Made by a program: the position numbers and the translations under genes. A stretch of 32,570 nucleotides of DNA from Clostridiales bacterium. Its GTDB lineage: Bacteria > Bacillota > Dehalobacteriia > UBA4068. The stretch is taken from positions 1 through 32,570 of the forward strand of contig WRHF01000007.1 of NCBI GenBank assembly GCA_009783415.1. Direction: 5' to 3'. Shown one piece after another: positions 804 through 32,300 of the stretch; position 1 is the stretch's first letter, and every line of letters begins with the position of its first letter. Below the pieces are notes generated by a model that was not told the origin of the DNA, ran no database searches, and saw only the letters and a program-made list of their open reading frames with translations.

Positions 804-842
804 ATAATCACGTCCTTACCCTGGATAAAACGAATAAAATCC

Positions 843-871
843 TTGACAAAAGTGCTAAAAGGATATATAAT
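843..871 (+). promoter_or_regulatory. Consensus sigma-A promoter of antisense RNA, copy 1
   Basis: TTGACA (843-848), 17 bp, TATAAT (866-871): a perfect consensus. Predicted start is near 878. The same promoter is kept in copy 2 at 4422-4450. It points away from hypC and opposes the small-peptide gene at 971-1069. Confidence 0.8.
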
Positions 872-970
872 GAAAGCTAGAAGGGGCGATGCCTGGCTGG
901 GCAAGGTCGCTTCTCCCTGAATTTTATGTAATATTCGAAGAGAAAGGCCTTTCCTACTACCTAGGGAAGG

Positions 971-1069
971 TTATTTCTTATCCCGAAGGATATCTCTCAG
1001 GACAAGAGCAGTAAGATAAATTATATAGGCTATTTCTAAAACAGCGGACAAGATTTTTATCACTGCCAC
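971..1069 (-). CDS. Small hydrophobic peptide, putative type I toxin, copy 1
   Basis: A frame of 32 codons plus TAA. Its core ILSAVLEIAYIIYLTALVL forms one membrane segment, and the end RDILRDKK is charged, the usual shape of type I toxins. GTG at 1069 opens the homologous frame; GTG at 1063 (30 residues) is better placed, 5 nt after the GGGAGG ribosome site. CCTCCC just upstream can pair with that site and hide it. Against copy 2 (4549-4647), codons 4-32 differ at eight positions: six synonymous, two conservative (A/V, I/V). That is a clear coding signature. The peptide family is not one I recognise; toxicity is inferred. Confidence 0.6.
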   Translation of the reverse strand: MAVIKILSAVLEIAYIIYLTALVLRDILRDKK

Positions 1070-1119
1070 CTCCCTTCGCGGGAGGAACAACCACATCGCC
1101 CGACTAGCTTTCTATGCTC

Positions 1120-1148
1120 GTTATAAAATAATTTGCTGAAAACAGCAA
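1120..1148 (-). promoter_or_regulatory. Promoter of small-peptide mRNA, copy 1
   Basis: On the minus strand TTGCTG (1148-1143), 17 bp, TATAAC (1125-1120). It would start near 1113, transcribe the peptide gene and could read on into hypC-hypD. Its -35 overlaps the stem of the terminator that ends the opposing RNA. Copy 2 has the equivalent at 4697-4725. Confidence 0.5.
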
Positions 1149-1158
1149 GTTCTTTTTT
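1133..1158 (+). terminator. Rho-independent terminator of antisense RNA, copy 1
   Basis: Stem TTGCTG / CAGCAA with loop AAAA, then GTTCTTTTTT. It ends two bases before the stop codon of the ATPase operon (1161). On the minus strand the stem is followed by ATTATTTTAT, so it may also end the operon transcript. Confidence 0.7.
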
Positions 1159-1160
1159 AG

Positions 1161-2390
1161 TTAAATACTTATTCCTTCCTCCAATAAGGCTTCTAATGAC
1201 GGCATATCATCCTCTTCATCAAATTTAGTCTGCCCCAGCTCGTTTACCGTTATATTCCCTGCCGCTTTGTATTGGAAATGCTGGTCCAGTAACTCCACGG
1301 CAGTTCTGATCCTTGTCCGCAGGAGGTAGCCGCTTTTTTCGGTGGCGGCAAAAACGCTGTTCAGATCTATATTCGGCTCCCAGTCATAGGCTTTGGCATG
1401 AAAATCCCGGATCTTTTCTATTATTGACATGATCTCGCGCTCATTCAGGGGAACTAACTGAGGTGAGGAGGAAATAGCACCCAGTATATTTTTTACATCC
1501 ACTCTGTCGTCGGGGCTCATCAGGGATGCATCCAGATTTTCAAACTCATTCTTACTTTCGATCACATCCGGCACAAAGGAAGCGTTAAAGGCAAAAAAGC
1601 TGTATACCGCCTCTAAATTGGACTCCGGGCCTGGAAAGAGGAATTTCGCCAGATTCAGATAGGCGTTAAGCCGGGCCTTTTTGCCGAGCCGGCCGATAAG
1701 TTCGGCCTCGTCAAACAAAATCACCCAGCCCGAATATCCCAATGCGGAAAAAAGGCGGCCCAAAAATGCGAAATAATCCGCTGAATGCTTTGTTTTGGCG
1801 AAATTTGTATTATAAGCGACTTTTTCGGTAAATATTCGCTTGTAGATCTTTTTTAGGATGTTGTTTGTGGTAAAATCCCCCTCAAGGTCGGCTAAGAGCA
1901 TGAATTTTTCTTCATCATCCTCGGTGCCCAGATATGATTTCAAAAGATAATATAATCTATCAGTTTCCAGATTTCTCAGTATATATTCCAATAGATCCGC
2001 AGACACGGGGCTTTTAAGAGCCATTTTTTCAAATATATGCCCGAATCCCGGCTGCAGGCGCCCGGGCAGATATGTCCCCTGGACGACTTTTTGATAGACA
2101 AGATAAAGCTTGTCGAACGGGGTTTCCTTACTTAAAGATACCAGAGTTACCACCATATCCCTCTCATGGGCCATGTTAAAAACAGTATTTAAGAGATGGG
2201 TTTTGCCCTCGCCGTATTTTCCGGTAATAATCATTCCGCCTGAAGTACGGTTCTCGACAGTATTATCAAGCGCTTTGCCTATTTCGTTCATTATTTTTGG
2301 CCGGGCCGAGGAAAAATAATGCCCTACCGACCGGGAAGAAATGCCGGAACGCAGCGCCTCTATAACCCGCCTTGCCTCAAAGTCAATCAT
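1161..2390 (-). CDS. P-loop ATPase, BrxD/DUF2791-like
   Basis: A cytoplasmic AAA-type ATPase of 409 residues. The N-terminus RRVIEALRSGISSRSVGHYF resembles the start of BrxC/BrxD-type (DUF2791) proteins of BREX-like systems. Walker A is GKYGEGKTH (57-65); Walker B is VILFDEAEL (about 222-230), followed by a likely sensor segment FFAFNASF. The C-terminal part (about 300-400) looks helical and ends in an acidic tail. It is the third gene of a tight operon: its ATG overlaps the end of the preceding ATPase by 8 nt. No BREX hallmark (PglX methylase, PglZ phosphatase) is in the window, so this is not a classical BREX locus. The family assignment is from memory of motifs and moderate; the ATPase call is solid. 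Confidence 0.75.
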   Translation of the reverse strand: MIDFEARRVIEALRSGISSRSVGHYFSSARPKIMNEIGKALDNTVENRTSGGMIITGKYGEGKTHLLNTVFNMAHERDMVVTLVSLSKETPFDKLYLVYQKVVQGTYLPGRLQPGFGHIFEKMALKSPVSADLLEYILRNLETDRLYYLLKSYLGTEDDEEKFMLLADLEGDFTTNNILKKIYKRIFTEKVAYNTNFAKTKHSADYFAFLGRLFSALGYSGWVILFDEAELIGRLGKKARLNAYLNLAKFLFPGPESNLEAVYSFFAFNASFVPDVIESKNEFENLDASLMSPDDRVDVKNILGAISSSPQLVPLNEREIMSIIEKIRDFHAKAYDWEPNIDLNSVFAATEKSGYLLRTRIRTAVELLDQHFQYKAAGNITVNELGQTKFDEEDDMPSLEALLEEGISI

Positions 2391-3609
2391 ATCCGACCTC
2401 CAAACCGGCAGTCGCCAAACTTATCATCCTCGGTAATGAGATCTGCCCGTAGCGGGCACGTTCAATCAGATCCCTTGCCATGTCCTCTCCCAGCGGGCTG
2501 ATCTTGCCGTCAAGCCCCGCCAGCACCCCGGCTATCCGGCGGGACATTTCCATCACGGTAGCTTCGTCATATTCCTGCCGCGCCAGCCTGTCCATATCTA
2601 CCATATCGGTAAAACGGTTGAAGCGCTCACCTTCTATCTCGTTTTGGATCCGCATCCAAAGAGCCTGATATGATTTGAGGCCAAAGTTATCATTGTCTAT
2701 CAGGCATCTGTTAAAAGAGAAGATAAACATGATATTCTTTAAAGTATCTATTTCATCAATCAGCTCGCGAATGCTTTCATAGGCGTCCTCGCGGCGCATT
2801 TTGGTATAGCGTATTTCGTCCAGCCCGTTGTTTTGGATCAGGATCTCCATATCGTCCATAGCAATGAGCAAGCCAAAATATCCGGCTGTTTTGATAACCT
2901 CAACCAAAGAACGCAGCATATGCCGGGCATTGTATTTGGTGATCCTGCTTGGGGAAAGCCCTAAAGCCCGGACAGCGGCCAGTTTGGCCTCGCGGCTGCC
3001 GGCAAGCCACATCAAAAGCAGCTCCCTGTTATGATCCTCCAAGAGGGGATGGCCTAAAATCCCACCTGTCAGCAAGCTGCAGCAAAAAGCAAAATTATTG
3101 TCAATAAGGGGATTTTGCAAAAACATCCTGTTGAGCTGCAAGCGTATTTCCCTTTTTACGATAGGATCCAATTGATTTATCCCGGACAGATAATCGGTAA
3201 AAGGCATTCCCTCCGGGATCTCTTCACTGCCATAGCCAAGCTCATTAATGATTTTGGCCGCGCATTTTTCCAGGCAGGAAAGTATATCTATTTCGGACAG
3301 CACAGCCGCATAGATTTCTTTGAAGTCGTGGATCCAAACGTTTTTAGCGGAAAGGCTGACGGTCTTGTAATTGTTTTTAGAGGCGCCGGCGAGAAACAGC
3401 TCCAGAAAGTGCGATTTTCCGCTGCCGGCATTGCCGGTCAGAAATTTTATTTTGCTGCCGCCGAGCTTGACATATTGCTCAAGATATTGCTCCTGCCAAA
3501 AATCGGTAATAAAATCTATGCCTACCGAGATTTTTTCAATAAGTTCAGGGTTCCCGGGCGGGATCCCGGTTTTCAGGTTGTAGATTGCGGTTTTATAATC
3601 ATTTCGCAT
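2383..3609 (-). CDS. P-loop ATPase, second subunit of the island operon
   Basis: 408 residues with Walker A TGNAGSGKSHFLE (58-70) and Walker B LLIAMDDMEIL (about 247-257). The segment IMFIFSFNRCLI resembles a sensor-1 strand. Size and layout match the ATPase encoded next (1161-2390), so the two probably form a pair or mixed ring. It starts at ATG 3609, 2 nt after the stop of the preceding gene, and overlaps the next gene by 8 nt. Such tight packing suggests fixed stoichiometry. I place it near DUF2791-type ATPases but cannot name a family with certainty. Substrate and partner are unknown; the divergent helicase is the likely partner by position. Confidence 0.75.
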   Translation of the reverse strand: MRNDYKTAIYNLKTGIPPGNPELIEKISVGIDFITDFWQEQYLEQYVKLGGSKIKFLTGNAGSGKSHFLELFLAGASKNNYKTVSLSAKNVWIHDFKEIYAAVLSEIDILSCLEKCAAKIINELGYGSEEIPEGMPFTDYLSGINQLDPIVKREIRLQLNRMFLQNPLIDNNFAFCCSLLTGGILGHPLLEDHNRELLLMWLAGSREAKLAAVRALGLSPSRITKYNARHMLRSLVEVIKTAGYFGLLIAMDDMEILIQNNGLDEIRYTKMRREDAYESIRELIDEIDTLKNIMFIFSFNRCLIDNDNFGLKSYQALWMRIQNEIEGERFNRFTDMVDMDRLARQEYDEATVMEMSRRIAGVLAGLDGKISPLGEDMARDLIERARYGQISLPRMISLATAGLEVGYD

Positions 3610-3611
3610 TT

Positions 3612-4397
3612 TTATTCACCCCGATAGAACCGTATGGTTGCCAAAAACCGCTCATGGCCGTCCCCGTCAAGTATCCTGATCGCTCTTTTTTGTTCCCTGC
3701 TCGGCCCGAACTGAAAACTCCGTCCGTCATCAATAGTCCGGATATCCGATGAATTGAGCCGCGCCAAATCAAAAGCAAAGCTTTGCAGATCATATTCGCG
3801 GCGGAATCTCCTCATGGGGGTCAGATGTTTATACAAGTCAGTCAAATAAAAATCCGCATCGGGGGCAACAGGCTTGTTTTTGCTTTTAAGCGTAACAGCC
3901 AAGTCATAGGCATGGGCCAGCTCACTGGCAAAGAGCAAGGGATTAAAGGAGACCGCCATCAGCTTGTCCCGGCTTGACTTAATATCACCGGCCAAGCTTT
4001 GGGGGCGCAGGCATTGAACTCGCCTTTTATTGATATAGACATCATAACTTTCAAAGTCCAGCTTTACTTTGTAGGGAAAAACTTCATATACATTATGCTC
4101 GCCCTTGGCATCCACCCCGGATTTTTCCAGATACTCCAGCATTTGCAAGGCATAGTCGCCGCTTTCCATATATTCCTTGGCATCAAAGCTTTCCAGGGTT
4201 TCCCGCATAAAGGCGGTCGCAGGCTGATAATCCGACTGCACTCCCTGCAGCAAGGTCATATCCTTAAGAGCGCTTTTTAAATCACCCTTTTCCAGGTTTT
4301 TCGCCATCCGTTTAAAAAACTTCTGCTGGTTTGCCAGCATGTCCCTTATTTCTTTTTCTTGAACCTGAGCTTTAGCATAAAATTCCTCGTAATTCAT
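3612..4397 (-). CDS. Uncharacterised protein, first gene of the ATPase operon
   Basis: 261 residues, not recognised. The first 60 residues are charged and probably form a coiled coil (YAKAQVQEKEIRDMLANQQK). The middle contains YKVKLDFESYDVYINKRRVQ, which looks like a small beta-rich unit. The C-terminal part is basic and ends in RILDGDGHERFLATIRFYRG. There is no signal peptide or membrane segment. GGGAGGAAAG lies 3 nt before the ATG at 4397, which fixes the start. As the first gene before two ATPases it may be an adaptor or DNA-binding subunit, but that is inference from context. Confidence 0.65.
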   Translation of the reverse strand: MNYEEFYAKAQVQEKEIRDMLANQQKFFKRMAKNLEKGDLKSALKDMTLLQGVQSDYQPATAFMRETLESFDAKEYMESGDYALQMLEYLEKSGVDAKGEHNVYEVFPYKVKLDFESYDVYINKRRVQCLRPQSLAGDIKSSRDKLMAVSFNPLLFASELAHAYDLAVTLKSKNKPVAPDADFYLTDLYKHLTPMRRFRREYDLQSFAFDLARLNSSDIRTIDDGRSFQFGPSREQKRAIRILDGDGHERFLATIRFYRGE

Positions 4398-4421
4398 TTA
4401 CTTTCCTCCCAAATTATTATC

Positions 4422-4450
4422 TTGACAAAAGTTCTAAAGAAATATATAAT
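4422..4450 (+). promoter_or_regulatory. Consensus sigma-A promoter of antisense RNA, copy 2
   Basis: TTGACA (4422-4427), 17 bp, TATAAT (4445-4450), predicted start near 4457. It lies 25 nt from the start codon of the ATPase operon and points away from it. Confidence 0.8.
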
Positions 4451-4548
4451 GAAAGCCAAGAGGGCGATGCCTGGGGAGGTAAGGTCGCTTCTCCCTGAAT
4501 TTACTTTATTATTCGAAGAGAAAGGCCTTTCCTACTACCTAGGGAAGG

Positions 4549-4647
4549 TTATTTCTTATCCCGAAGGATGTCCCTTAGGACAAGCGCAGTAAGATAAACT
4601 ATGTACGCTATCTCTAAAACAACGGACAAGATTTTTATCGTTACCAT
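4549..4647 (-). CDS. Small hydrophobic peptide, putative type I toxin, copy 2
   Basis: 32 codons plus TAA, homologous over its length to 971-1069, with the same membrane core (ILSVVLEIAYIVYLTALVL) and the same RDILRDKK tail. It opens with ATG at 4647, but the purine-rich AAGGGGG directly touches the ATG, which is poor spacing. The well-spaced codon is ACG where copy 1 has GTG, so this copy may be weakly translated or decaying. CCTCCC upstream can still pair with GGGGG through one U-G wobble. The transcript from 4697-4725 could continue into the ATPase operon. Confidence 0.5.
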   Translation of the reverse strand: MVTIKILSVVLEIAYIVYLTALVLRDILRDKK

Positions 4648-4696
4648 CCCCCTTCAAGGGAGGAACAACCACATCGCCCAGCTAGCTTTCTTCACC

Positions 4697-4725
4697 ATTA
4701 TAAGATAATATACCAGAAATAGCAA
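4697..4725 (-). promoter_or_regulatory. Promoter of small-peptide mRNA, copy 2, likely also of the ATPase operon
   Basis: Minus strand TTGCTA (4725-4720), 17 bp, TATAAT (4702-4697). No better minus-strand promoter is visible closer to the operon start at 4397. If it drives the operon, the operon leader is about 290 nt, contains the peptide gene and is antisense to the RNA at 4457-4737. Confidence 0.55.
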
Positions 4726-4756
4726 GCATTTTTTTATGTTGTGTTTTCAAAGCAAT

Positions 4757-4785
4757 TTGACATTTTTCCTTAAATATAGTATTAT
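4757..4785 (+). promoter_or_regulatory. Helicase promoter
   Basis: TTGACA (4757-4762), 17 bp, TATTAT (4780-4785), 36 bp before the helicase ATG. The ribosome site (AGGTTGGG) is weak and far from the start. Confidence 0.8.
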
Positions 4786-4821
4786 CTTGTCCTAAGTGAC
4801 TAAATAGGTTGGGCAAAAAAT

Positions 4822-6360
4822 ATGTATAATTTACCCAATAAAACACTATTCACCTGGCAACAGGAATGCCTTAGGCTGTGGTTTGAAAACGGCTCCAGAG
4901 GCATCGTTAATGTTGTGACCGGGGCCGGCAAGACGCTTTTGGCTTTGGGCGCTGTACATAGTATTAAAGAAAAGCTGAAAGTCAAAATAGTTGTACCCAA
5001 GGTGTTCTTAGTATCCCAATGGACCAATGCGATCAGGGACGAGCTGGGAATTCCCCGCGAGGAAATAGGGGTATACAGCGGAAAGCATAAGGATGCCGCT
5101 CCCAAGGATTATATGATCTATGTGATAAATTCCGCCCGTTACAGCATTTCCCGGCATATCCTTGACGATCTGGAATGCGGATACCCTGTTTTGCTTATTT
5201 GCGATGAATGCCATAACTACGGCAGCGGGGAAAACTCAAAAATATTTGATTTTTTACCCTATGTCCACCGCTATGAGGCAAAATATTATTCCCTGGGGCT
5301 GTCCGCCACTCCCCAGTCACCGAATTATCACAAGGTGCTTGTACCTGCGCTTGGAGAGGAAATCTACAGATTAAGTTTTTCAGAAGCCATCAAAGAAAAT
5401 ATTATCTCAAAATATTCGATTTTCAACATCGGACTTCATTTTCATACCGATGAAGCAGGCGAATATGCTGATTTGAGTGACAAAATAACCAAGAATATGC
5501 ATACCTTAAAAAAGCACATTCCTCAGCTGGGCAGCCTGAATCGCGCCGGTTTTTATGCAGCGCTCCAAGACTTATGCGACGGACCCCATGCCCAGCTGGC
5601 CAAACTGACTATGGCTTTGCTCTATAAAAGAAAAAAGATCGTTTATTCAGCCCGGGCCCGTATTGACTGTGCCTGTACGCTGATAGAACGCCTTGACAAA
5701 AAGAGCAAAATAATTATTTTCGGCGAGCAAATTGAAATGATTGAAGCTTTGTATAAACGGTTAAATACGCTTTTACCCGGACAAACCGGCAGATATCACA
5801 GCAAAATGAGCGTTGCCGCCAGAACGATTACGCTCAATAATTACCAAAATATGGAAATTCGTATCCTGATTTGCTGCCGGGCTCTGGACGAGGGGTTGAA
5901 TGTGCCTCAAACTGATGTGGGGATCATTTTGTCTTCTACCGGCAGCGTCAGGCAAAGGATCCAACGGATCGGGAGAATTTTGCGGCGTTGTGCGGAGGAT
6001 GGCGCCAAAAGTGTCTATTATCTGCACGTTGCCGATTCCAGCGAGGAAGACGGCTTGGTTACCGAAGATATTTACGCGGATATGCCGGTATACCATCTGT
6101 CTTACGACTATAAAACCGACGACTTTGCTTTTTCCGAGTATGACCGGTGTGCCTTGCAAATCATGGATGACCTTTCCCGAAAAGGAACATCCCCTGATCT
6201 GATGATCGAACTCAGCAAAAATTTTAAGCTGGGCCAACTGCGGGGCGGCTGGCAGATTTCCGCAGAAAAATGCCTGGCAAATATCAGAGCGGCGACCGAC
6301 AAGGCAGAGCGCAACTATTGGATAGCTATGCTAAAAATTATTCAAAAAGTTCACTATTGA
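4822..6360 (+). CDS. SF2 DNA/RNA helicase, XPB/RAD25-like
   Basis: An ATP-dependent helicase or translocase of 512 residues. Visible motifs are: a Q-motif-like TWQQECLRLWF (11-21), Walker A VTGAGKT (about 32-38), DECH box (128-131), SATP (161-164), the second RecA domain with FGEQIEMIEALYKRL, and motif VI QRIQRIGRILRR (378-389). The region about 180-265 between the two halves could contact DNA. The overall plan recalls XPB-like and restriction-type SF2 enzymes, but there is no nuclease domain. It is divergent from the three-gene ATPase operon and separated from it only by the small-peptide/antisense element, so it probably belongs to the same system. Product class is certain; role is not. Confidence 0.88.
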   Translation: MYNLPNKTLFTWQQECLRLWFENGSRGIVNVVTGAGKTLLALGAVHSIKEKLKVKIVVPKVFLVSQWTNAIRDELGIPREEIGVYSGKHKDAAPKDYMIYVINSARYSISRHILDDLECGYPVLLICDECHNYGSGENSKIFDFLPYVHRYEAKYYSLGLSATPQSPNYHKVLVPALGEEIYRLSFSEAIKENIISKYSIFNIGLHFHTDEAGEYADLSDKITKNMHTLKKHIPQLGSLNRAGFYAALQDLCDGPHAQLAKLTMALLYKRKKIVYSARARIDCACTLIERLDKKSKIIIFGEQIEMIEALYKRLNTLLPGQTGRYHSKMSVAARTITLNNYQNMEIRILICCRALDEGLNVPQTDVGIILSSTGSVRQRIQRIGRILRRCAEDGAKSVYYLHVADSSEEDGLVTEDIYADMPVYHLSYDYKTDDFAFSEYDRCALQIMDDLSRKGTSPDLMIELSKNFKLGQLRGGWQISAEKCLANIRAATDKAERNYWIAMLKIIQKVHY

Positions 6361-6732
6361 CAATGTCCGGAAAGATCATAATCGGCATTATTACCGGATG
6401 AACTTGAACATCAAAAGTGGCGGGTCTTACGGCGGATCGGTGCTATTGGCCTGTTTTGGGGCGAGCAATTTATAGGACGAGTTGAAGCAATTTGCGAACG
6501 AAAAACAGGCACTCTAATAGCCAAAAACCCTGCAAAGCATACCGTAAATTATTTTATTTTTGGACGTGGACTTTTGTGACTTAGTGTGGTACAATACCTA
6601 TAGTACCTCAACCTGTAAATCAGTAAAAAATTACAGTCGCTGACTAAAATGTAGTTTGAGAATATAGTATGTAACATCATTGATTATTCGATAATATAAA
6701 ATCGGATATTTTTCGAAAAGTGGTGATTTCAG
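6361..6732. other. Gene-free stretch with a possible gene remnant
   Basis: Between helicase and DUF488 genes. A start-less frame on the plus strand (6382-6579, 65 codons) reads like protein (DELEHQKWRVLRRIGAIGLF, then NPAKHTVNYFIFGRG) and ends in TGA; I cannot assign it. It may be the 3' remnant of a gene destroyed when the island was assembled. The rest is AT-rich promoter sequence; no terminator for the helicase is evident. Confidence 0.35.
6567..6595 (+). promoter_or_regulatory. Possible promoter of the DUF488 operon
   Basis: TGGACT (6567-6572), 17 bp, TACAAT (6590-6595). The -35 is weak (4 of 6) and the leader would be about 130 nt, so this is tentative. Confidence 0.35.
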
Positions 6733-7398
6733 ATGCTTAATGTTCTATATACAATAGGCTACTCAGGTTATAAGGTAGAGGAATTTCTTAGTGTGATTAA
6801 AGAACGCGCAATATCTACTGTAATTGACGTCAGAAGTGTCCCTTATTCACAATATCACTCCGATTACAACAAAGAGGTTTTGAAAGCATTCCTAAATACT
6901 AATAGAGTTCATTACCGCAATTACGCTAAAGAATTTGGTGCTCAGCAAATAAGTAAAATATTCTATTCACCCAACGGGTATTTGGACTTTGATATATTCA
7001 CAAAATCCGAAGAATTTTTAAGTGGTATTGGAAAGCTCAAATCAGGAATGGATAGTGGGTATACGTTCGTGTTGATGTGTGCTGAAAAAGACCCTATTAA
7101 TTGCCATAGGGCAATAATGGTTGCTCGTGAATTTCAAAAAAACGATTATAACATTGTTCATTTATTACCCGACGGCAACGAACAATCCCAGAGAGATATA
7201 GAAACACGTTTGCTGGAACGTTATTTTCCTAACAGAAAGCAGCTTACAATATTTGAAAATAGCGATTTGACGAATCAAGACATGATTGATTTATCGTACA
7301 GAAAAAGAAACGCTGAAATTGGCTATACAATGGGAGGTGAAAGAAATGATAATATATACAATAGGGTTTACTCAAAAAACAGCACAGCGGTTCTTTGA
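6733..7398 (+). CDS. DUF488 family protein
   Basis: 221 residues. DUF488 signatures are clear: YTIGYSGYKVEEFL at the start, IDVRSVPYSQYHSDYNKE (about 35-53), and LMCAEKDPINCHRAIMVA with the conserved Cys-x(7)-Cys-His-Arg arrangement. The biochemical function of DUF488 proteins is not established. GTGGTGATTTCAG precedes the ATG. Its last 53 nt overlap the next gene, another DUF488 protein, indicating translational coupling. Base composition is clearly more AT-rich than the flanking hyp genes, which suggests transfer. Confidence 0.8.
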   Translation: MLNVLYTIGYSGYKVEEFLSVIKERAISTVIDVRSVPYSQYHSDYNKEVLKAFLNTNRVHYRNYAKEFGAQQISKIFYSPNGYLDFDIFTKSEEFLSGIGKLKSGMDSGYTFVLMCAEKDPINCHRAIMVAREFQKNDYNIVHLLPDGNEQSQRDIETRLLERYFPNRKQLTIFENSDLTNQDMIDLSYRKRNAEIGYTMGGERNDNIYNRVYSKNSTAVL

Positions 7399-7786
7399 AA
7401 TCATACAGAATAATGGCATCAAGCTCGTAATTGATATTCGGCTTAATAATGCTTCGCAGTTGGCAGGATTTTCAAAAGGCAATGATTTGAAATATTTTTT
7501 ATCCAAAATATGTGGGTGTGATTATACACATCGTGTTGATTTTGCACCTACAAAAGAAATTCTTGATGGATATAAAGGGAAAATAATAACTTGGCCAGAA
7601 TACGAAATGCAGTATACTTCGCTCATCTATAATAGAGGGTCGCTTGGCGGTTTTATTGAAAAATATAATAAATATCAAAAAGTATGCTTGCTATGCAGTG
7701 AGCCAACAGAAGCAAATTGTCACAGACGGCTTTTTGCTGAAATGCTTGCTAAGGAGTACCAGCAAATTACAATTAAGCACATATAA
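7346..7786 (+). CDS. DUF488 family protein, shorter paralogue
   Basis: 146 residues from ATG 7346, chosen because GGGAGGTGAAAGAA sits directly before it and the protein then opens with the family motif MIIYTIGFTQKTAQRFFEII. IDIRLNN and LLCSEPTEANCHRRLFAEML repeat the motif set of the upstream DUF488 gene. It lies inside the end of that gene in another frame and is followed after 12 nt by the dual-OB-like gene. A tandem DUF488 pair suggests a heteromer. Function unknown. Confidence 0.8.
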   Translation: MIIYTIGFTQKTAQRFFEIIQNNGIKLVIDIRLNNASQLAGFSKGNDLKYFLSKICGCDYTHRVDFAPTKEILDGYKGKIITWPEYEMQYTSLIYNRGSLGGFIEKYNKYQKVCLLCSEPTEANCHRRLFAEMLAKEYQQITIKHI

Positions 7787-7798
7787 ATAGAGGGAAAT

Positions 7799-8434
7799 AT
7801 GGATATAGAGCTTGTTATATTAACAAAATCATCAAAATATAAGGGTTATTGTGTTGCTGGTATTGACATAAGAAGTGGTCAATGGGTTCGCTTAACATCG
7901 GATGATGAGAGTACACATGGTGCATTATCTCTAAGAGATATGCAGTATAAAAACAGATCCGTTTGCCAAACTCTTGATATAGTAAAAGTTGAAGTAGTTA
8001 ATAGGAATCCATCAGAATATCAGCCCGAAAACGTTTTAATTAACACAGGCTATTATTGGCAAAAAATAGGGAAATACACAATTAATGATATTTTAAGAAT
8101 TCATCCGGCTGAAAAACATGAATTTTTATTCGGAAATCTGCGTCCATATACTACGGAAGCTGAAATGAGTTCCATCGGCTATTCACTTGCTTTAGTTAAT
8201 GCTAAAAACTTAATTATCTCACAAACGACAAATCCATATGGCAAACCTAAAACAAAGATTGATTTTTCATATGGGGCAAAGTGGTATAAAAACATATCGG
8301 TAACTGATCCAAATTATTATAACGCACCTGATAGAATGCAAATAAGTAAAGCTGTACTTGTAATAAGTTTGCCAGATAGTCCATTTCCGGAAGATAAATA
8401 TTATAAGTTTGTTGCTCAGATTTATAATATTTGA
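7799..8434 (+). CDS. Dual OB-fold-like protein
   Basis: 211 residues. The opening LVILTKSSKYKGYCVAGIDI then SGQWVRLTSDD resembles proteins described as having a dual OB domain, often found beside DUF488 genes; this is recalled, not searched. It is rich in beta strands, has no catalytic motif I recognise and no membrane segment. GAGGGAAAT precedes the ATG. It is third in the AT-rich DUF488 operon. A nucleic-acid-binding partner role for the DUF488 proteins is inference. Confidence 0.55.
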   Translation: MDIELVILTKSSKYKGYCVAGIDIRSGQWVRLTSDDESTHGALSLRDMQYKNRSVCQTLDIVKVEVVNRNPSEYQPENVLINTGYYWQKIGKYTINDILRIHPAEKHEFLFGNLRPYTTEAEMSSIGYSLALVNAKNLIISQTTNPYGKPKTKIDFSYGAKWYKNISVTDPNYYNAPDRMQISKAVLVISLPDSPFPEDKYYKFVAQIYNI

Positions 8435-8524
8435 CTATACATAATTACAAACACAAATAATCGACCTACCGTCATGCTCATTTATAACAGCTCATACAAG
8501 TGATGATGTACGGGAAATAAGCTG

Positions 8525-10988: not shown

Positions 10989-12293
10989 CTATATGCAAAA
11001 TGCTGCATATAACGGAACTGTCTTTTTCCCATCCTCAAAACCAAAGTTCTTTGTAGACAGCTTAATCGAATATTCCGGTTTAAAAACACTAATATATATG
11101 CTTAAGCTTTTCGCCTTGGTGTTATCCGCTGACTTAACCTCGATGGGGATAATTTTGCCTTCTCTTTGAATGACAAAATCCACTTCGGCGCCGCGGCTTG
11201 AGGTCCAGTAATAGCTTTTATAGTCATTGGCCAAAAGCTGGCAGTAAACATAATTTTCTACCATGCCGCCTTTGAAATCATCCAAGTCGGAGGAAAGATA
11301 CAGGACATCCTCAGCAACAATGTCCTTTTTAGCGCAAAGCAAGCCAGGATCGGAGACATAAGTCTTGAATGAATCAATATCCCGATAATTATCCAAAGGC
11401 TTTTGGGGATGATCCAGACGATAGATGCGGTTAACAATGCCGGAAAGAGTCAGCCATTCGATTGCGTTTTCAAATTCTGACGCCCGGGCGCCCGTTTTTA
11501 TCAGTTTATATTGAAAACGCGTATTTTTTTTAGAAAGCTGCACAGTTATATTATCATAAACCAATCTGGTTTTTTTGATTTCGTTTTGGTTATTGTATTT
11601 GCTCATGTCGTTAAGATAATTTCCCAGAATTTCTTTTTGGATATGGCGAATTAAGACAAAATCCAAAGTCCGCAAGTATTTATCTACACATTCGGGCATT
11701 CCGCCAACCACCAAATATTGCCTGTATTTTTTCAGCAATTCTTCATGCTCAATAAATGGCAGCGGCAGGTTGCCCTCAAAGCAGTTTTTGATTTTCGTGA
11801 CTAGCTCATCCAGGCCGAAAGCAAGTAAAAATTCCTCCATATCCATCGGCCTCAAGGTAAGAGAATTTACTTTTCCCACAGGAAATGAGAACGTTTCGCG
11901 ATTAACAGCGACCCCAAGCAAACTTCCCGCAACAATTATGTGATAATCCGGCGCGAATTCGCAAAAATACTTCAGCGAGGTCAAGGCTCGGGGGCAAAGC
12001 TGAATTTCATCAAGAAATATCAGGGTTTCACCCCTTAGTATGCTTTGCTTTGAATGCAATGATAATTGGGGTATCAGATCTTTCGGGTCAATGCTTTCGG
12101 CAAAAACCTGCGCTAAATTCAGATCGGTTTCAAAATTAAAATAGGCCACATTCTGATAATTTTCCCGCCCAAACTCCAACACAGAAAAAGTCTTACCCAC
12201 CTGCCTTGCCCCTTGCAAAATCAAAGGCTTGCGATAAGGACTGTTTTTCCATTCGCTTAAATTTTTCATAATTTTCCGGTACATTCCAGACAC
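10989..12293 (-). CDS. AAA ATPase with DUF4143 domain
   Basis: 434 residues. AAA_14-type N-terminus with Walker A GARQVGKTF (28-36) and Walker B LIFLDEIQLCP; arginine-finger region EFAPDYHIIVAGSLLG. The C-terminal DUF4143 part contains SRGAEVDFVIQREGKIIPIE, a PD-(D/E)XK-like nuclease fold signature, followed by K of VKSAD. These widespread genes are poorly understood and often move horizontally. It has its own promoter at 12315-12343 and lies between hypB and hypF, so it interrupts the hyp gene order. Confidence 0.85.
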   Translation of the reverse strand: MSGMYRKIMKNLSEWKNSPYRKPLILQGARQVGKTFSVLEFGRENYQNVAYFNFETDLNLAQVFAESIDPKDLIPQLSLHSKQSILRGETLIFLDEIQLCPRALTSLKYFCEFAPDYHIIVAGSLLGVAVNRETFSFPVGKVNSLTLRPMDMEEFLLAFGLDELVTKIKNCFEGNLPLPFIEHEELLKKYRQYLVVGGMPECVDKYLRTLDFVLIRHIQKEILGNYLNDMSKYNNQNEIKKTRLVYDNITVQLSKKNTRFQYKLIKTGARASEFENAIEWLTLSGIVNRIYRLDHPQKPLDNYRDIDSFKTYVSDPGLLCAKKDIVAEDVLYLSSDLDDFKGGMVENYVYCQLLANDYKSYYWTSSRGAEVDFVIQREGKIIPIEVKSADNTKAKSLSIYISVFKPEYSIKLSTKNFGFEDGKKTVPLYAAFCI

Positions 12294-18384: not shown

Positions 18385-18476
18385 CTAATTATTAAAACAA
18401 TCTGCAACTAATTATTAAAACTTTTAGCCACTAATTATTCAAAAATGCTTGCGCTAATTACTAAAATATCCTATAA
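18385..18476 (+). repeat. Four 23-bp direct repeats in the promoter of the second DUF4143 ATPase
   Basis: CTAATTATTAAAA occurs at 18385 and 18408, CTAATTATTCAAA at 18431 and CTAATTACTAAAA at 18454, always 23 bp apart. The last unit lies across the spacer and reaches the -10. Copies on roughly the same helical face every two turns look like an operator or iteron array for a protein binding cooperatively. Confidence 0.85.
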
Positions 18477-18477
18477 T
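18449..18477 (+). promoter_or_regulatory. Promoter of the second DUF4143 ATPase
   Basis: TTGCGC (18449-18454), 17 bp, TATAAT (18472-18477). The -10 is perfect and the -35 poor; the fourth 23-bp repeat overlaps the promoter. Confidence 0.65.
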
Positions 18478-18507
18478 AGGTTTATCATAAAACAGCGGGA
18501 GGTCATT

Positions 18508-19779
18508 ATGACTTATATAAAAAGGATTATCGACAAAACCATTGCTGAAAAATTGCAAATTATGGGCTGCGTAGTTGTTAGAGGGCCGAAATGGTGCGGT
18601 AAAACTACTACAGCAGAACAAATTGCCAAAAGCAGTATAGAGTTTCAAGACCCTGTCGAAGGAGAAAAATACAAAGAAATTGCTGAGAACAATATAAAAT
18701 TATTATTAGAGGGCGAAAAGCCTCGCCTTATTGATGAATGGCAATTGATACCTAATATTTGGAACGCCATCAGATATGATGTCGATAAGAAAGGAGAACC
18801 GGGTTTGTATATAATTACCGGTTCTGTAACTCCTAATGATGAAGATAAAAAAGATTTGCACTCAGGAACCGGCAGAATGTCTTTCGTTACCATGTACCCA
18901 ATGTCTTTATATGAAAGCGGGGACTCAAATGGTTCGATTTCTCTCAAAAGTATCTTGGATGGTGATATTGAAGTAAATGGGCAAAAATCGGATATAACCT
19001 ATGAAAGATTAGCTTACCTTACTTGCCGGGGCGGTTGGCCATCCGCAGTCAAGATCAGTGATGAAAATTTAGCCTTGAAAGTTGCCAAAGAGTATTTAGA
19101 TGCTTTATGCGAAAGCGATATTGAAAATGAGGAGAAAAAAAACATCAACCCTGCCTTGACCCGAGCAATAATCAGAGCATACTCAAGGCTTGTCTGCACT
19201 ATTGAAGCCGATAAAACTCTTTATGAGGATATTAGGAATATCTACGGCGACGTGTCTGACCCGACAATAATGTCATATCTCAATAAACTTAACCGCTTGT
19301 ATGTAACGGATGAAATTGAAGCATGGAATCCGAACATTATCAGTAAAACAAATGTCCGGACATCTCCTAAGAAAGCCCTTGTTGACTCATCTATTGCCGT
19401 AGCAGCTTTGCAGTGTTCACCAAAAGAACTGGCCTTGGATCCTATTTCTTTCGGCTTATTATTTGAGAATTTAGCTGATAGAGACTTGAAAATCTATGCA
19501 AACAGTCGAGGTGGATTTTTAAGACATTACCGGGATAGATATGGGCTGGAATGCGACCAAGTCATTCATTTTGATAATGGCGAGTATGGACTTATCCAAA
19601 CAAAGCTGGGGACAAAAAAAATAAAAGAGGCTACCAATAAATTAATCGAATTGAGGGATAAAATCAAAGCTAATGGGAGAAAAGAGCCTAAATTTTTGAT
19701 GGTTGTAACAGGAAGCGATATTGCCTACACAACAAAAGAAGGCGTATTAATTGTTCCGATCGGGTGCTTAAAAGATTAA
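18508..19779 (+). CDS. AAA ATPase with DUF4143-type C-terminus
   Basis: 423 residues from ATG 18508, chosen for GGGAGG 5 nt upstream; the longer frame runs back through the promoter repeats. N-terminus RIIDKTIAEKL, a variant Walker A GPKWCGKTTT (26-35), then LIDEWQLIPNIWNAIRYDV as Walker B and MYPMSLYES. The C-terminal half has LYVTDEIEAW and the nuclease-like SRGGFLRHYRDRYGLECDQV with a later QTKLG. It is transcribed against ligA and pcrA, with its own terminator at 19815-19845, so it looks like a self-contained insertion. Confidence 0.85.
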   Translation: MTYIKRIIDKTIAEKLQIMGCVVVRGPKWCGKTTTAEQIAKSSIEFQDPVEGEKYKEIAENNIKLLLEGEKPRLIDEWQLIPNIWNAIRYDVDKKGEPGLYIITGSVTPNDEDKKDLHSGTGRMSFVTMYPMSLYESGDSNGSISLKSILDGDIEVNGQKSDITYERLAYLTCRGGWPSAVKISDENLALKVAKEYLDALCESDIENEEKKNINPALTRAIIRAYSRLVCTIEADKTLYEDIRNIYGDVSDPTIMSYLNKLNRLYVTDEIEAWNPNIISKTNVRTSPKKALVDSSIAVAALQCSPKELALDPISFGLLFENLADRDLKIYANSRGGFLRHYRDRYGLECDQVIHFDNGEYGLIQTKLGTKKIKEATNKLIELRDKIKANGRKEPKFLMVVTGSDIAYTTKEGVLIVPIGCLKD

Positions 19780-19814
19780 GTAAATGATTTTGATAGCTGA
19801 TGAACCACTACTGA

Positions 19815-19845
19815 AGCCGCCTTCGTTATGAAGGCGGCTCTTTTT
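19815..19845 (+). terminator. Rho-independent terminator
   Basis: Arms AGCCGCCTTC and GAAGGCGGCT (10 bp, perfect), loop GTTAT, then CTTTTTG. It ends the DUF4143 ATPase transcript before convergent pcrA. Confidence 0.9.
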
Positions 19846-19961
19846 GCTATTTTCCTCTCTAATTATGCTAAAGCCTCCCTCGTAGTTATAGCCCCATTGT
19901 ATCACAATCAATGTTATTTGGAAAGCATTTTTTTGCCCAAATACCCATTTCCCTCTATTTG

Positions 19962-22216: not shown

Positions 22217-23593
22217 TTATTCTATCATTTCGGTAAAGGCAATGAGCTTGACATTGGGCAAAGAACCTGCTTTTTGCCAACAGCTTTCAGTAAATCCCGA
22301 TTTTGAAAACAAATAAAAGTATTTATCCGGAAAACTGAATAATCCGCTGCGATCCAGCAAAAGGTGCAAAATGTCTAAGCCTACTTTATCATTTGTCCAT
22401 TTGCATTCGCAAAAAATCGCGCTTTCCTTGCCTGCATAAGCCAATAAATCTATTTCGGTTTCACACTTATTGCGCGGATCATTTCCCCACCAGCGCCCGA
22501 TATCATCAAATTCTAGAGGCAAATTACCGCTAAGCAGCATTCTCCACATATATTGCCTGCAGATCTCTTCAAATACTACGCCCATAAAATTTGCCAGCTG
22601 CCCGCTTATTTTTTGGTAAACCCTGTCAATATTGCCTTGCTGAAGCTGAGAAATATTTTTCGCAATAAATCTATACCAAAATCTAAATAATCCATCTTCG
22701 ATCTTATAAAGCGTTTTTTGCGGTGAAGGTTTATATATGGGTGTTTCTTTTTTGATCAGGCCCAATGAGATCAAATTGCTTAAGTATTCAGTTAAAGAGC
22801 CGTCTACCTTGGAAGCTATTTCTGAGTATTTAGCGCTTCCATTAGCTATAACGCTGATTATTGAATTGTAGGTTGCAGGCTCTCTGACCTCTTGTTTTAG
22901 GAGATTTGCCGGCTCCTCAAAAAGATAGGATGATGGATCCAAAAAGTGCTTTTTAATATTTTGCTCCAGGGATAAACTTTCATTGATTTGATTTAGGTAT
23001 TGAGGAGTTCCCCCGGTTATGCCGTAAATAACAGCCGTTTCTTCCGCTGAAAATTTCCTGAAAAACCCTTTTGCGGCAAAAAAATCAAAAGGCAAAAGTT
23101 TTATTTGTCCGGTCCTTCTGCCATAAAGCGGACTTTGATAAGCCAAAACCTGTTTTTCCATGAAAGACATTGACGATCCGCACAGAATTAAGAACAAATT
23201 GGTATTCTGGTATTTATGGTCTATCTGGACTTGCAATAGCGACGATATTCCCGGAAATGCTTTTGCCAGGTAAGGATATTCATCAATCACAAAAACCACT
23301 TTCTCTTTTTGGGCTCTTTCAAAGACTTCGTCCAAAACAGTCTGATATCCTTGTACCAGGGTTCCGGTTGGATAAATATCGCTTTTAAAAACAACTTTAC
23401 TCAATTCTTCCAAGTTTCTTTGGGCATCCATCTCAAGGCCGGTATACATAAAAACCTTTTTATCCTTAATAAATTCGCTGATCAGAGCTGTTTTTCCCAC
23501 ACGCCTGCGTCCGTAAATTATGATACATTGGAATTTGTTTTCTTCATATCTTTCGCATAATGAACTCAGCTCTTTTTCCCTGCCAATGAACAT
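22217..23593 (-). CDS. Archaeal-type ATPase with DUF234 C-terminus
   Basis: 458 residues. MFIGREKELSSL start, Walker A GRRRVGKTAL (28-37), Walker B VVFVIDEYPYL (about 98-108) and CGSSMSFME. A winged-helix stretch is at about 240-290 (ANGSAKYSEIASKVDGSLTE). The DUF234 part has FEEICRQYM and the nuclease-like ETEIDLLAYAGKESAIFCEC followed by KW. These STAND-like ATPases are common in anaerobes and of unknown function. A perfect promoter at 23635-23663 and a GGGAGG ribosome site suggest strong expression. It precedes pcrA by 18 nt on the same strand. Confidence 0.87.
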   Translation of the reverse strand: MFIGREKELSSLCERYEENKFQCIIIYGRRRVGKTALISEFIKDKKVFMYTGLEMDAQRNLEELSKVVFKSDIYPTGTLVQGYQTVLDEVFERAQKEKVVFVIDEYPYLAKAFPGISSLLQVQIDHKYQNTNLFLILCGSSMSFMEKQVLAYQSPLYGRRTGQIKLLPFDFFAAKGFFRKFSAEETAVIYGITGGTPQYLNQINESLSLEQNIKKHFLDPSSYLFEEPANLLKQEVREPATYNSIISVIANGSAKYSEIASKVDGSLTEYLSNLISLGLIKKETPIYKPSPQKTLYKIEDGLFRFWYRFIAKNISQLQQGNIDRVYQKISGQLANFMGVVFEEICRQYMWRMLLSGNLPLEFDDIGRWWGNDPRNKCETEIDLLAYAGKESAIFCECKWTNDKVGLDILHLLLDRSGLFSFPDKYFYLFSKSGFTESCWQKAGSLPNVKLIAFTEMIE

Positions 23594-29976: not shown

Positions 29977-30200
29977 GTTTTGCGAAGCAAAACCAACCAA
30001 ACCTAACCCGGACAAGCCGGAGTGTTGAGTTTTGAATGTTGAGTTTTGAGTAGGAGCAGGAATACGGCGGCACGAAAATTTTGCCATTTTACGCAGAATT
30101 TCGGGAGTAAGTGCCTATTACCTATTACTTATTACTTATTACCTATTACCTATTACCTATTACCTATTACCTATTACCTATTACCTATTACTTATTACCT
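29977..30200 (+). repeat. Hairpin, 110-bp repeat copy 1 and 12-unit heptad array
   Basis: GTTTTGC-GAA-GCAAAAC (29977-29993); the dispersed repeat 30007-30117 with heptads TGTTGAG/TTTTGAA (30023-30050) and CGGCACGAAAATTTTGCC; then twelve CCTATTA/CTTATTA units (30114-30197). This fills the whole spoIIIAE-spoIIIAF gap; no gene is present. Confidence 0.92.
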
Positions 30201-30204
30201 GCTT

Positions 30205-31494
30205 TTACCGCATCATCATAGTTATGTTCCCCGCCGCCAGTACGATCGCCAGAATAAAGAAAAACAGCAACCCGCATACAGCCACCGCCGCAAACAGTAA
30301 CAGCATAGTACCGGCTAGGCCGCTCAAAGCATTGGCTAGCTCCGTTTCCCCTAATGGCTGAATCGCAGCCGCAGCCAGGCGGAACATCAATACCTGGACC
30401 AGGATCTTGACAGCAGGTAAGGCACAGATCAGTAATATGCCCAATACCCCCACTATGCCTACGATATTTTTTAAAAGTAAAGTGGTACCCAGGACACTAT
30501 CCAGGGCATCAGCCAGGCTCCGCCCCACGACCGGAATAAAAATGCCGCTGGCTGTTTTGGCCGCCTTAATGGTAATACCATCAAAAGAAGCCCCTGCCAA
30601 CCCGGCCAGGCTCAAAAAACTGATAAAGACAGTCAGGCCGATACTCATTGCCCCAACGGCTATATCTTTGAACAAACCGGCCATTTTGTCCACATTAAAG
30701 CGAGGGGAAATATGGCTGACCAGACGCAAAATCGCGGAAAAATAAATCAGAGGAAAAATAAAATTACGGATCAAGTTGATCAATACGGAAATGGTAAAAA
30801 TTATGGCGGGATGTACCAAAGTTACGGCAGTAATACCCCCCACCGCAGCCAAGAGAGCCATCAATATAGGTAAAACTGCATATAGAAAGCCGCTCATCAG
30901 ATCTATGGCAGAACGGGCTGCTTCCATAGTTAAGGAAAAACTGGCAATAACAATGGTGGCTAGCACCAAATATATTACCCCCCGGCTGAGCAGGACTATT
31001 TTCCCTTGATCATTGTTCTTTAGATTGCTGACTATAAGGCATAGAATAGCTAAAGCAATCAACTGGGTCAAAAGCCGGCCGGAGGTTGCCACCTCTTTGC
31101 CAAAAATCGTGAGAAGTAATTTCAGGAAACCGGGCAGATCCAAATGGAGACGGCCCTGACGCAAATCCGCCCAGATACCCCGGAGGCTAAAATCCTTGGC
31201 ATAGTTTTGCAGCTGATCATCCATCTGCTGCAAAAACTGCTCCATAGCAGAAAGATCCAGTTTCCGCTCCAAATCCAAAAGATCGGCAGCTTGTCCCTGA
31301 TCCGAAGCGGCAAGGGCAGGCGGTGTCGGGGAGTAGGCCAGAGTTAGGGTAAATGCTATGAGAAATAGGATAGCAGCCAATTTGGGCCGAAATTGACAAT
31401 TGACAATTGACAATTGACAATTTTGGAAGTTTTCGCTCCGCGAAAAAACAATTAAGTGCTTTTTTAATTTTTGCTTCGCAAAAACACCTCTCAT
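30205..31494 (-). CDS. spoIIIAE: SpoIIIAE
   Basis: 429 residues from ATG 31494. A polytopic membrane protein of the SpoIIIA channel. After a signal-like segment (AAILFLIAFTLTLAYSPTPP) come a soluble helical part and at least six membrane segments (e.g. AIDLMSGFLYAVLPILMALL, FIFPLIYFSAILRLVSHI). The first 40 or so residues (VFSRSENFQNCQLSIVNCQ region) are encoded by heptad arrays and hairpins, and the ribosome site GGAGA is itself part of the array. A native start may have been lost or lie closer to the signal segment, e.g. a TTG near residue 37. The C-terminus is normal and ends at a heptad array. Confidence 0.93.
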   Translation of the reverse strand: MRGVFAKQKLKKHLIVFSRSENFQNCQLSIVNCQFRPKLAAILFLIAFTLTLAYSPTPPALAASDQGQAADLLDLERKLDLSAMEQFLQQMDDQLQNYAKDFSLRGIWADLRQGRLHLDLPGFLKLLLTIFGKEVATSGRLLTQLIALAILCLIVSNLKNNDQGKIVLLSRGVIYLVLATIVIASFSLTMEAARSAIDLMSGFLYAVLPILMALLAAVGGITAVTLVHPAIIFTISVLINLIRNFIFPLIYFSAILRLVSHISPRFNVDKMAGLFKDIAVGAMSIGLTVFISFLSLAGLAGASFDGITIKAAKTASGIFIPVVGRSLADALDSVLGTTLLLKNIVGIVGVLGILLICALPAVKILVQVLMFRLAAAAIQPLGETELANALSGLAGTMLLLFAAVAVCGLLFFFILAIVLAAGNITMMMR

Positions 31495-31933: not shown

Positions 31934-32060
31934 TCAATATAATCTAAAGACTTGTTGGACCCCCTCAAACAGTTGCTGTATGAGAGGCAATACCTGCAGC
32001 AGGCCAATGGTTAGACCTACCAATACCGTTAAATAAGCATATTCTTCCCGCCCTATTTCC
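31934..32060 (-). pseudogene. Partial duplicate of the spoIIIAC 3' end
   Basis: Block 31936-32054 matches 32102-32220 at about 106 of 119 positions. It keeps the frame from GREEYAYLTVLVGLTIGLL to the end FEGVQQVFRLY and then a stop. Of about 13 differences only one changes the protein (Q for R). It lacks the first membrane segment and a start codon, and a 15-bp-arm hairpin (32064-32096) sits at the broken end. Confidence 0.85.
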
Positions 32061-32063
32061 CGC

Positions 32064-32096
32064 ATTCTTTCCCCCGCCGGAGGCGGGGGAAAGAAT
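32064..32096. repeat. Perfect hairpin at the spoIIIAC duplication junction
   Basis: 15-bp arms (ATTCTTTCCCCCGCC and its complement) around the loop GGA. Confidence 0.85.
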
Positions 32097-32099
32097 ATT

Positions 32100-32300
32100 C
32101 TAATATAATCTAAAGACTTGTTGTACCCCTTCAAATAGTTGTTGTATGAGAGGTAATACCCGCAACAAGCCAATGGTTAGACCTACCAATACTGTCAGAT
32201 AGGCATATTCTTCCCGACCTGCCTGCTTCAGGAAGGTGTGCAAAATCGTGACCACTATCGCTAAAGCAGTTAGAAAGAAAATAATCGACGTATCCTGCAC
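32100..32300 (-). CDS. spoIIIAC: SpoIIIAC
   Basis: 66 residues with two membrane segments (IIFFLTALAIVVTILHTFL and YLTVLVGLTIGLLRVLPLI), the expected size and sequence for this small channel component. GTG start with AAGGGGGG 8 nt upstream. The gap towards spoIIIAB (which should lie right of the window) is unusually long and filled with repeats. A partial second copy of its 3' end follows. Confidence 0.93.
   Translation of the reverse strand: MQDTSIIFFLTALAIVVTILHTFLKQAGREEYAYLTVLVGLTIGLLRVLPLIQQLFEGVQQVFRLY

Follow-up and report, generated by a model that had tools for sequence, protein, structure and literature searches.

Two copies of a probable type I toxin–antitoxin element in a Clostridiales genome, grouped by their RNA with the BsrG/Hol_Tox loci

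What kind of gene pair is formed by a short element that occurs twice in one stretch of chromosome, encodes a small hydrophobic peptide on one strand and bears a perfect promoter on the other? The question is raised by a 32,570-nt stretch of DNA (hereafter, the window) from a Clostridiales bacterium (assembly GCA_009783415.1, contig WRHF01000007.1; the genome is called G000 below), in which we name the two copies A and B. An earlier, sequence-only reading had taken them for an undescribed type I toxin–antitoxin-like element, in which an RNA made from the plus strand would be antisense to the whole peptide gene. On the evidence given below, we consider it highly probable that A and B are chromosomal type I toxin–antitoxin loci working like BsrG/SR4 and TxpA/RatA, and, judged by their sequences, they are divergent relatives of that Bacillus kind. 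The type I layout itself is well supported, by homologues that keep the reading frame, by a pair of opposed promoters and by conservation of the RNA structure; the part of the earlier proposal that did not stand is the whole-gene antisense RNA.

Results

Two copies of a conserved peptide frame

The cores of the two copies, at positions 884–1101 (A) and 4462–4679 (B), give an ungapped alignment in which 194 of 218 nt are identical (89.0%), in agreement with the value of approximately 89% first reported, and the best unrelated ungapped match to the core elsewhere in the window reaches 85/218. Each minus strand encodes a hydrophobic peptide of approximately 29 residues, much as had been described; that of copy A is (GTG)IKILSAVLEIAYIIYLTALVLRDILRDKK and that of copy B reads ...IKILSVVLEIAYIVYLTALVLRDILRDKK. 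The open reading frames (ORFs) are as follows.

971–1063, minus strand: copy A toxin ORF, starting at GTG (1063–1061) or at ATA (1060–1058), the latter at the site homologous to the ATG of the relatives
4549–4638, minus strand: copy B toxin ORF, from ATA at the homologous start site; an in-frame ATG (4647–4645) overlaps the Shine–Dalgarno sequence

Over 30 codons (90 bases) the two frames differ at nine nucleotides, of which one, one and seven fall at codon positions 1, 2 and 3, respectively, giving seven synonymous and two non-synonymous codon changes (P = 0.003 when the same changes are placed at random). An earlier count over codons 4–32 had given six synonymous and two conservative changes; the two residue changes were recovered, and the synonymous count over the 30 codons is seven. 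A coding (purifying) constraint on the peptide frame is thus well supported by the comparison of the two copies, and we infer that the peptide is a membrane toxin.

The RNA scaffold and its relatives

On the toxin strand the features follow a constant order: a promoter; a CUCC/GGAGG-type hairpin over the Shine–Dalgarno sequence; the peptide and its stop codon; a conserved hairpin immediately after the stop; and, at the 3′ end, a sequence complementary to that at the 5′ end.

872–1112, minus strand: copy A toxin mRNA unit, approximately 240 nt, its ends closed by the inverted repeat GAAAGCTAG...CTAGCTTTC
4451–4690, minus strand: copy B toxin mRNA unit
1120–1148, minus strand: copy A toxin promoter, weak, TTGCTG-17-TATAAC
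4697–4725, minus strand: copy B toxin promoter, good, TTGCTA-17-TATAAT
1069–1085, minus strand: copy A Shine–Dalgarno hairpin, CCUCCC-GCGAA-GGGAGG, predicted to sequester the Shine–Dalgarno sequence
4647–4663, minus strand: copy B Shine–Dalgarno hairpin

Pairing in the closing stem is kept even though A/B differ there in sequence from the other copies, and in 11 of the 26 consensus pairs both partners have changed. In 22 of 23 copies the fold of the toxin (mRNA) strand is more stable than that of the complementary strand, a difference that would be expected were G-U pairs permitted on the toxin strand. The toxin promoter, of the form TTG(C/G)..-17-TATA.., is good in B and in most close relatives, and weak in A.

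DNA searches of G000 found the relatives C45, C8, C172 and C24, together with a broken element on contig C74 (L017, approximately 1475–1740), which lacks a peptide and is interrupted midway by an unrelated inverted-repeat stretch. R1, a window-derived covariance model of nine copies, then found C183 (E = 3e-21; E-values from both models used here are rough) and loci in genomes G010, G017, G003 and G030, all outside its building set, followed by others elsewhere in the phylum. At most of these loci the matched strand has a ribosome-binding site and encodes a hydrophobic peptide, 20–30 residues long, that ends in K or R; matches in G025 and G027, among the weakest, showed no clear peptide in the part inspected. 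In G017, a genome of the same family, two different units of the same scaffold lie in tandem (L013, 1186–1381 and 1510–1727), one of them Hol_Tox-like and apparently ATC-started.

For the second model, R2, we used 15 copies, all from genomes other than G000; it contains no G000 sequence, although those copies came from window-derived searches. Applied to G000, it found B (E = 6.2e-9), A (5.6e-8), C8, C183, C24, C172, C45, C81, C134 and C190, and C58 more weakly, so that nine loci of the genome besides A and B have E below 1e-3 and bear a recognised peptide, and the number of further copies in G000 is at least nine. The peptides of C81 (MSTYEALSLMIAFGTLIILVLKFRTKK), C134 and C190 exceed the curated cut-off of the Pfam family Hol_Tox (PF16935; 23.3 bits), four Hol_Tox loci in G000 lie above that cut-off, and loci found by R1 in other families also carry Hol_Tox peptides. 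Peptide B and the shared A/B peptide fall below the cut-off, and the peptides of A, B, C24, C45, C8, C183 and C58 have no match to the Hol_Tox profile; their cores are of the YIxxLT type or plain hydrophobic segments, with K/R ends.

The Rfam BsrG family (RF01412) has a gathering score of 55 bits. That cut-off is passed, among the loci found by R1 in other families, by those in G243 (72.8 bits) and G265 (55.7 bits), with G160 close to it; the best score in G000 is 46.3 bits, at C81, and across 14 control genomes the model matched in Bacillus subtilis only. Because of the R2 matches, the Hol_Tox-bearing loci and the relatives above the BsrG cut-off, A and B are grouped here with the BsrG/Hol_Tox loci by their RNA, on sequence similarity, and are not filed as members of RF01412 or PF16935. 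They share with the wider BsrG/TxpA-like scaffold a homologous toxin mRNA, a Shine–Dalgarno hairpin and an antitoxin terminator at the stop codon. The description of the element as undescribed therefore holds for its peptides but not for its RNA scaffold, which is homologous to that of the BsrG/Hol_Tox loci.

Other searches were negative. Rfam gave no family for the element in the window, the weak microRNA-like matches at 29.3 kb lying far below the cut-off. Scans for the element-end pattern in GTDB genome contigs and viral contigs, distant blastn in plasmids and tblastn of peptide B in phages found no match. An R1 match at 19674–19859 (16.4 bits) was rejected as an ordinary-looking hairpin without a peptide, and a 26-nt match in G015:C40 was rejected as having none of the flanking features of the element.

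Start codons and the expected strength of toxin synthesis

Several observations weigh against A and B being working loci of this kind. In an alignment with C45 and C172, the start region is GGAGGTGGCAGTG-ATG in C45 and GGAGGTGGCAGTG-ATA in A, and B has ATA at the same site; that is, both copies carry AUA where the relatives carry AUG, with a GTG one codon ahead of it in A. The toxin promoter of copy A is poor (its score is reached by 0.395 of shuffles), and a strong toxin-strand terminator is lacking downstream of A and of B. In addition, searches of Pfam and NCBIfam gave no family for the peptides of A and B, and neither copy has an RF01412 match, the weak lax-threshold matches near them looking like chance. 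Because of the AUA start, the weak A promoter and the lack of a strong terminator, expression of A and B may be weak, and one or both copies may be attenuated.

Taken further, the same features could mean that A and B are decayed remnants that no longer make toxin, with an antitoxin RNA left that might give protection from related loci, or only a promoter for neighbouring genes. The AUA codons, the poor A promoter and the weak terminators all fit such decay, as does the presence of the degenerate relative C74 in the same genome. However, the peptide of A and B is under purifying constraint and the Shine–Dalgarno hairpin has been kept, and non-AUG starts recur in intact-looking relatives: the start is ATC in G017b, G010b, G010C70 and G017C16, and ATG in the relative G010C159 and in the Hol_Tox peptides. 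We therefore regard complete decay as unlikely. The weak starts would reflect either a recurrent damping of toxin synthesis or the dying of some copies, and the coding constraint on A and B favours damping, although not strongly.

The antitoxin RNA ends at the toxin stop codon

The features of the opposite strand are listed below; the starts of the predicted RNAs are placed from the -10 boxes.

843–871, plus strand: copy A antitoxin promoter, TTGACA-17-TATAAT
4422–4450, plus strand: copy B antitoxin promoter, TTGACA-17-TATAAT
877–983, plus strand: copy A predicted antitoxin RNA, approximately 105–110 nt, complementary to the toxin 3′ untranslated region (UTR) and the last few codons
4456–4561, plus strand: copy B predicted antitoxin RNA, approximately 105–110 nt
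946–983, plus strand: copy A antitoxin intrinsic terminator, an 11-bp hairpin followed by ATTTCTTAT, overlapping the toxin stop codon
4524–4561, plus strand: copy B antitoxin terminator, at the toxin stop codon

The two plus-strand promoters are exactly those reported by the sequence-only reading, each a 12/12 match with a 17-nt spacer. The same perfect promoter is present in five close paralogues, and it was reached in 0 of 200 shuffles. An antisense RNA gene with its own promoter is thus predicted to overlap the toxin mRNA. At the toxin stop codon the plus strand of A and B forms a hairpin followed by a U-tract (GGCCUUUCCUACUACCUAGGGAAGGUU then AUUUCUUAU), and of the 23 copies examined nearly all have a comparable terminator at much the same position, G003C13 being the clear exception. 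This U-tract is complementary to the final toxin codons together with the stop (AAA/AAG codons plus UAA). Given this conserved terminator, the antitoxin would be approximately 105–110 nt long and would pair only with the toxin 3′ UTR and last codons; it probably does not cover the whole gene, and on this point the earlier proposal was not borne out. The predicted pairing energy of each antitoxin is best with its own mRNA, and cross-reaction is predicted between A and B and between C45 and C172.

The Ibs/Sib pairs of Escherichia coli combine very short membrane peptides, many chromosomal copies and an antisense RNA, and Sib spans the whole ibs gene. If A and B were of that kind, the plus-strand RNA would span the entire toxin gene and block translation by covering the Shine–Dalgarno sequence, as the earlier reading had pictured. 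The multiple chromosomal copies recall Ibs/Sib, and the facing promoters at both ends of one segment of approximately 240 nt would give full overlap if transcription read through, but in A, B and nearly all relatives the hairpin and U-tract stand at the toxin stop, so that neither the whole frame nor the ribosome site would be covered; in addition, the homology points to the BsrG/Hol_Tox loci. We consider an Ibs/Sib-like mode of action quite improbable, and prefer control from the 3′ end, as in BsrG/SR4 and TxpA/RatA.

Genomic surroundings

Copy A lies approximately 70 bp from hypC, and its antitoxin promoter approximately 40 bp from that gene, at the edge of a 7.7-kb insert (window 804–8524) between hypC and hypF, which are adjacent in 9/9 relatives checked. 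Encoded in the insert is a defence-like set comprising two BrxC/D-like ATPases, a 261-residue protein, a divergent PbeA-like helicase, two DUF488 proteins and one DuOB protein. A three-gene ATPase cassette with the divergent helicase (window 1161–6360) is also found at seven other loci (L077 and L079–L084), and without the helicase at L078. PADLOC returned only weak SngB/BrxD and partial PbeA matches for this cassette, which may therefore be an unnamed defence system.

It is tempting to see the element as a dedicated part of this defence-like cassette, coupling toxin release to phage attack, because A and B bracket the ATPase operon, with B in the divergent gap between operon and helicase, and because type I pairs of Clostridioides difficile adjoin clustered regularly interspaced short palindromic repeat (CRISPR) arrays (PMC6563280). 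The element is, however, absent from all eight other cassette loci examined, including the seven with the divergent helicase, and five paralogues adjoin other chromosomal genes, the neighbours elsewhere being a thioredoxin-reductase-like gene and dnaJ, gcvT and a spoVA gene, and prmC and prfA. Membership of the cassette is thus unsupported and, in our view, very improbable; since those eight loci lack the element, copy B is best read as an insertion into the operon–helicase gap. Type I pairs in prophages have been suggested to help retain them (PMC6563280) and, by analogy, A and B may contribute to retention of the insert.

Least credible of all, and in our opinion virtually dismissed, is a structured plus-strand non-coding RNA unrelated to toxins, with an accidental minus-strand frame, which would suit the strong plus promoter, the long inverted repeats and the good folding of the plus strand, but is contradicted by the conservation of the frame between copies, the Shine–Dalgarno spacing, the occurrence of Hol_Tox peptides at the corresponding position of homologous loci, the better folding of the peptide strand and the lack of any Rfam family on the plus strand.

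Elsewhere in the window there are three separate AAA-type ATPase genes (10989–12293, 18445–19779 and 22217–23593), the first of which matches PADLOC PDC-S01, the others being similar by eye only. Two overlapping frames at 31934–32300 contain a near-identical repeat (GREEYAYLTVLVGLTIGLL...) and look as if part of a gene for a small membrane protein had been duplicated, and a short tandem repeat at 30046–30300, reading LPITYYLLPITYY in one frame, is typical of an intergenic repeat.

Discussion

The loci A and B resemble BsrG/SR4 of B. subtilis in having a small hydrophobic toxin, a sequestered Shine–Dalgarno sequence and an opposite-strand antitoxin that runs into the 3′ end of the toxin mRNA (PMC6562991). 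The B. subtilis antitoxins bind the 3′ end of the toxin mRNA over 100–140 bp and bring about its decay, and SR4 additionally tightens the Shine–Dalgarno stem (PMC6562991). The convergent genes of TxpA/RatA, from the B. subtilis skin element, overlap by approximately 120 nt at their 3′ ends, and the ensuing decay needs RNase III (PMC3531473). In contrast to both systems, the predicted antitoxin of A and B starts inside the closing stem and would be wholly nested in the toxin unit rather than merely overlapping its 3′ end, and the A/B peptide is unrelated to that of BsrG by profile. The link to Hol_Tox, a putative holin-like toxin, is that the same RNA scaffold bears Hol_Tox peptides in C81, C134, C190 and other genomes. 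The type I pairs of C. difficile (CD2517.1-RCd8 and others) are likewise from Clostridia, with convergent overlapping genes and defence genes nearby (PMC6563280), but their toxins have 34–59 amino acids compared with approximately 29 residues in A and B.

A mechanism can be proposed, in which transcription, duplex decay, toxicity and the continued expression of A and B are all predictions from sequence. The minus strand would give an mRNA of approximately 240 nt for a single-pass membrane peptide of approximately 29 residues; because a local hairpin would hold its Shine–Dalgarno sequence and its two ends would pair with each other, this mRNA would on its own be translated poorly. From the stronger plus-strand promoter, just past the mRNA 3′ end, an antitoxin of approximately 105–110 nt would be made, ending at the terminator over the toxin stop. 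The antitoxin would pair with the 3′ half of the toxin mRNA, and the duplex would be destroyed, presumably by RNase III. Once antitoxin synthesis stopped, the peptide would be made and would damage the membrane.

A broader proposal, possible although on balance doubtful, is that some dozen paralogues on a constant RNA scaffold make up a type I toxin branch that has evolved separately in a Clostridia-like lineage on which little work has been done. In such a branch the peptide would have turned over from Hol_Tox to new sequences, the lysine-rich tail would have been kept largely because it encodes the U-tract of the antitoxin terminator, and output would be damped by recurrent AUA and AUC starts.

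A and B extend the BsrG/Hol_Tox kind to peptides that are unnamed in the annotation libraries searched, and for locating such loci the RNA scaffold proves a better handle than the peptide. The lysine-rich tails of the toxins may also have a simple reason, namely that they are the antitoxin terminator read in antisense.

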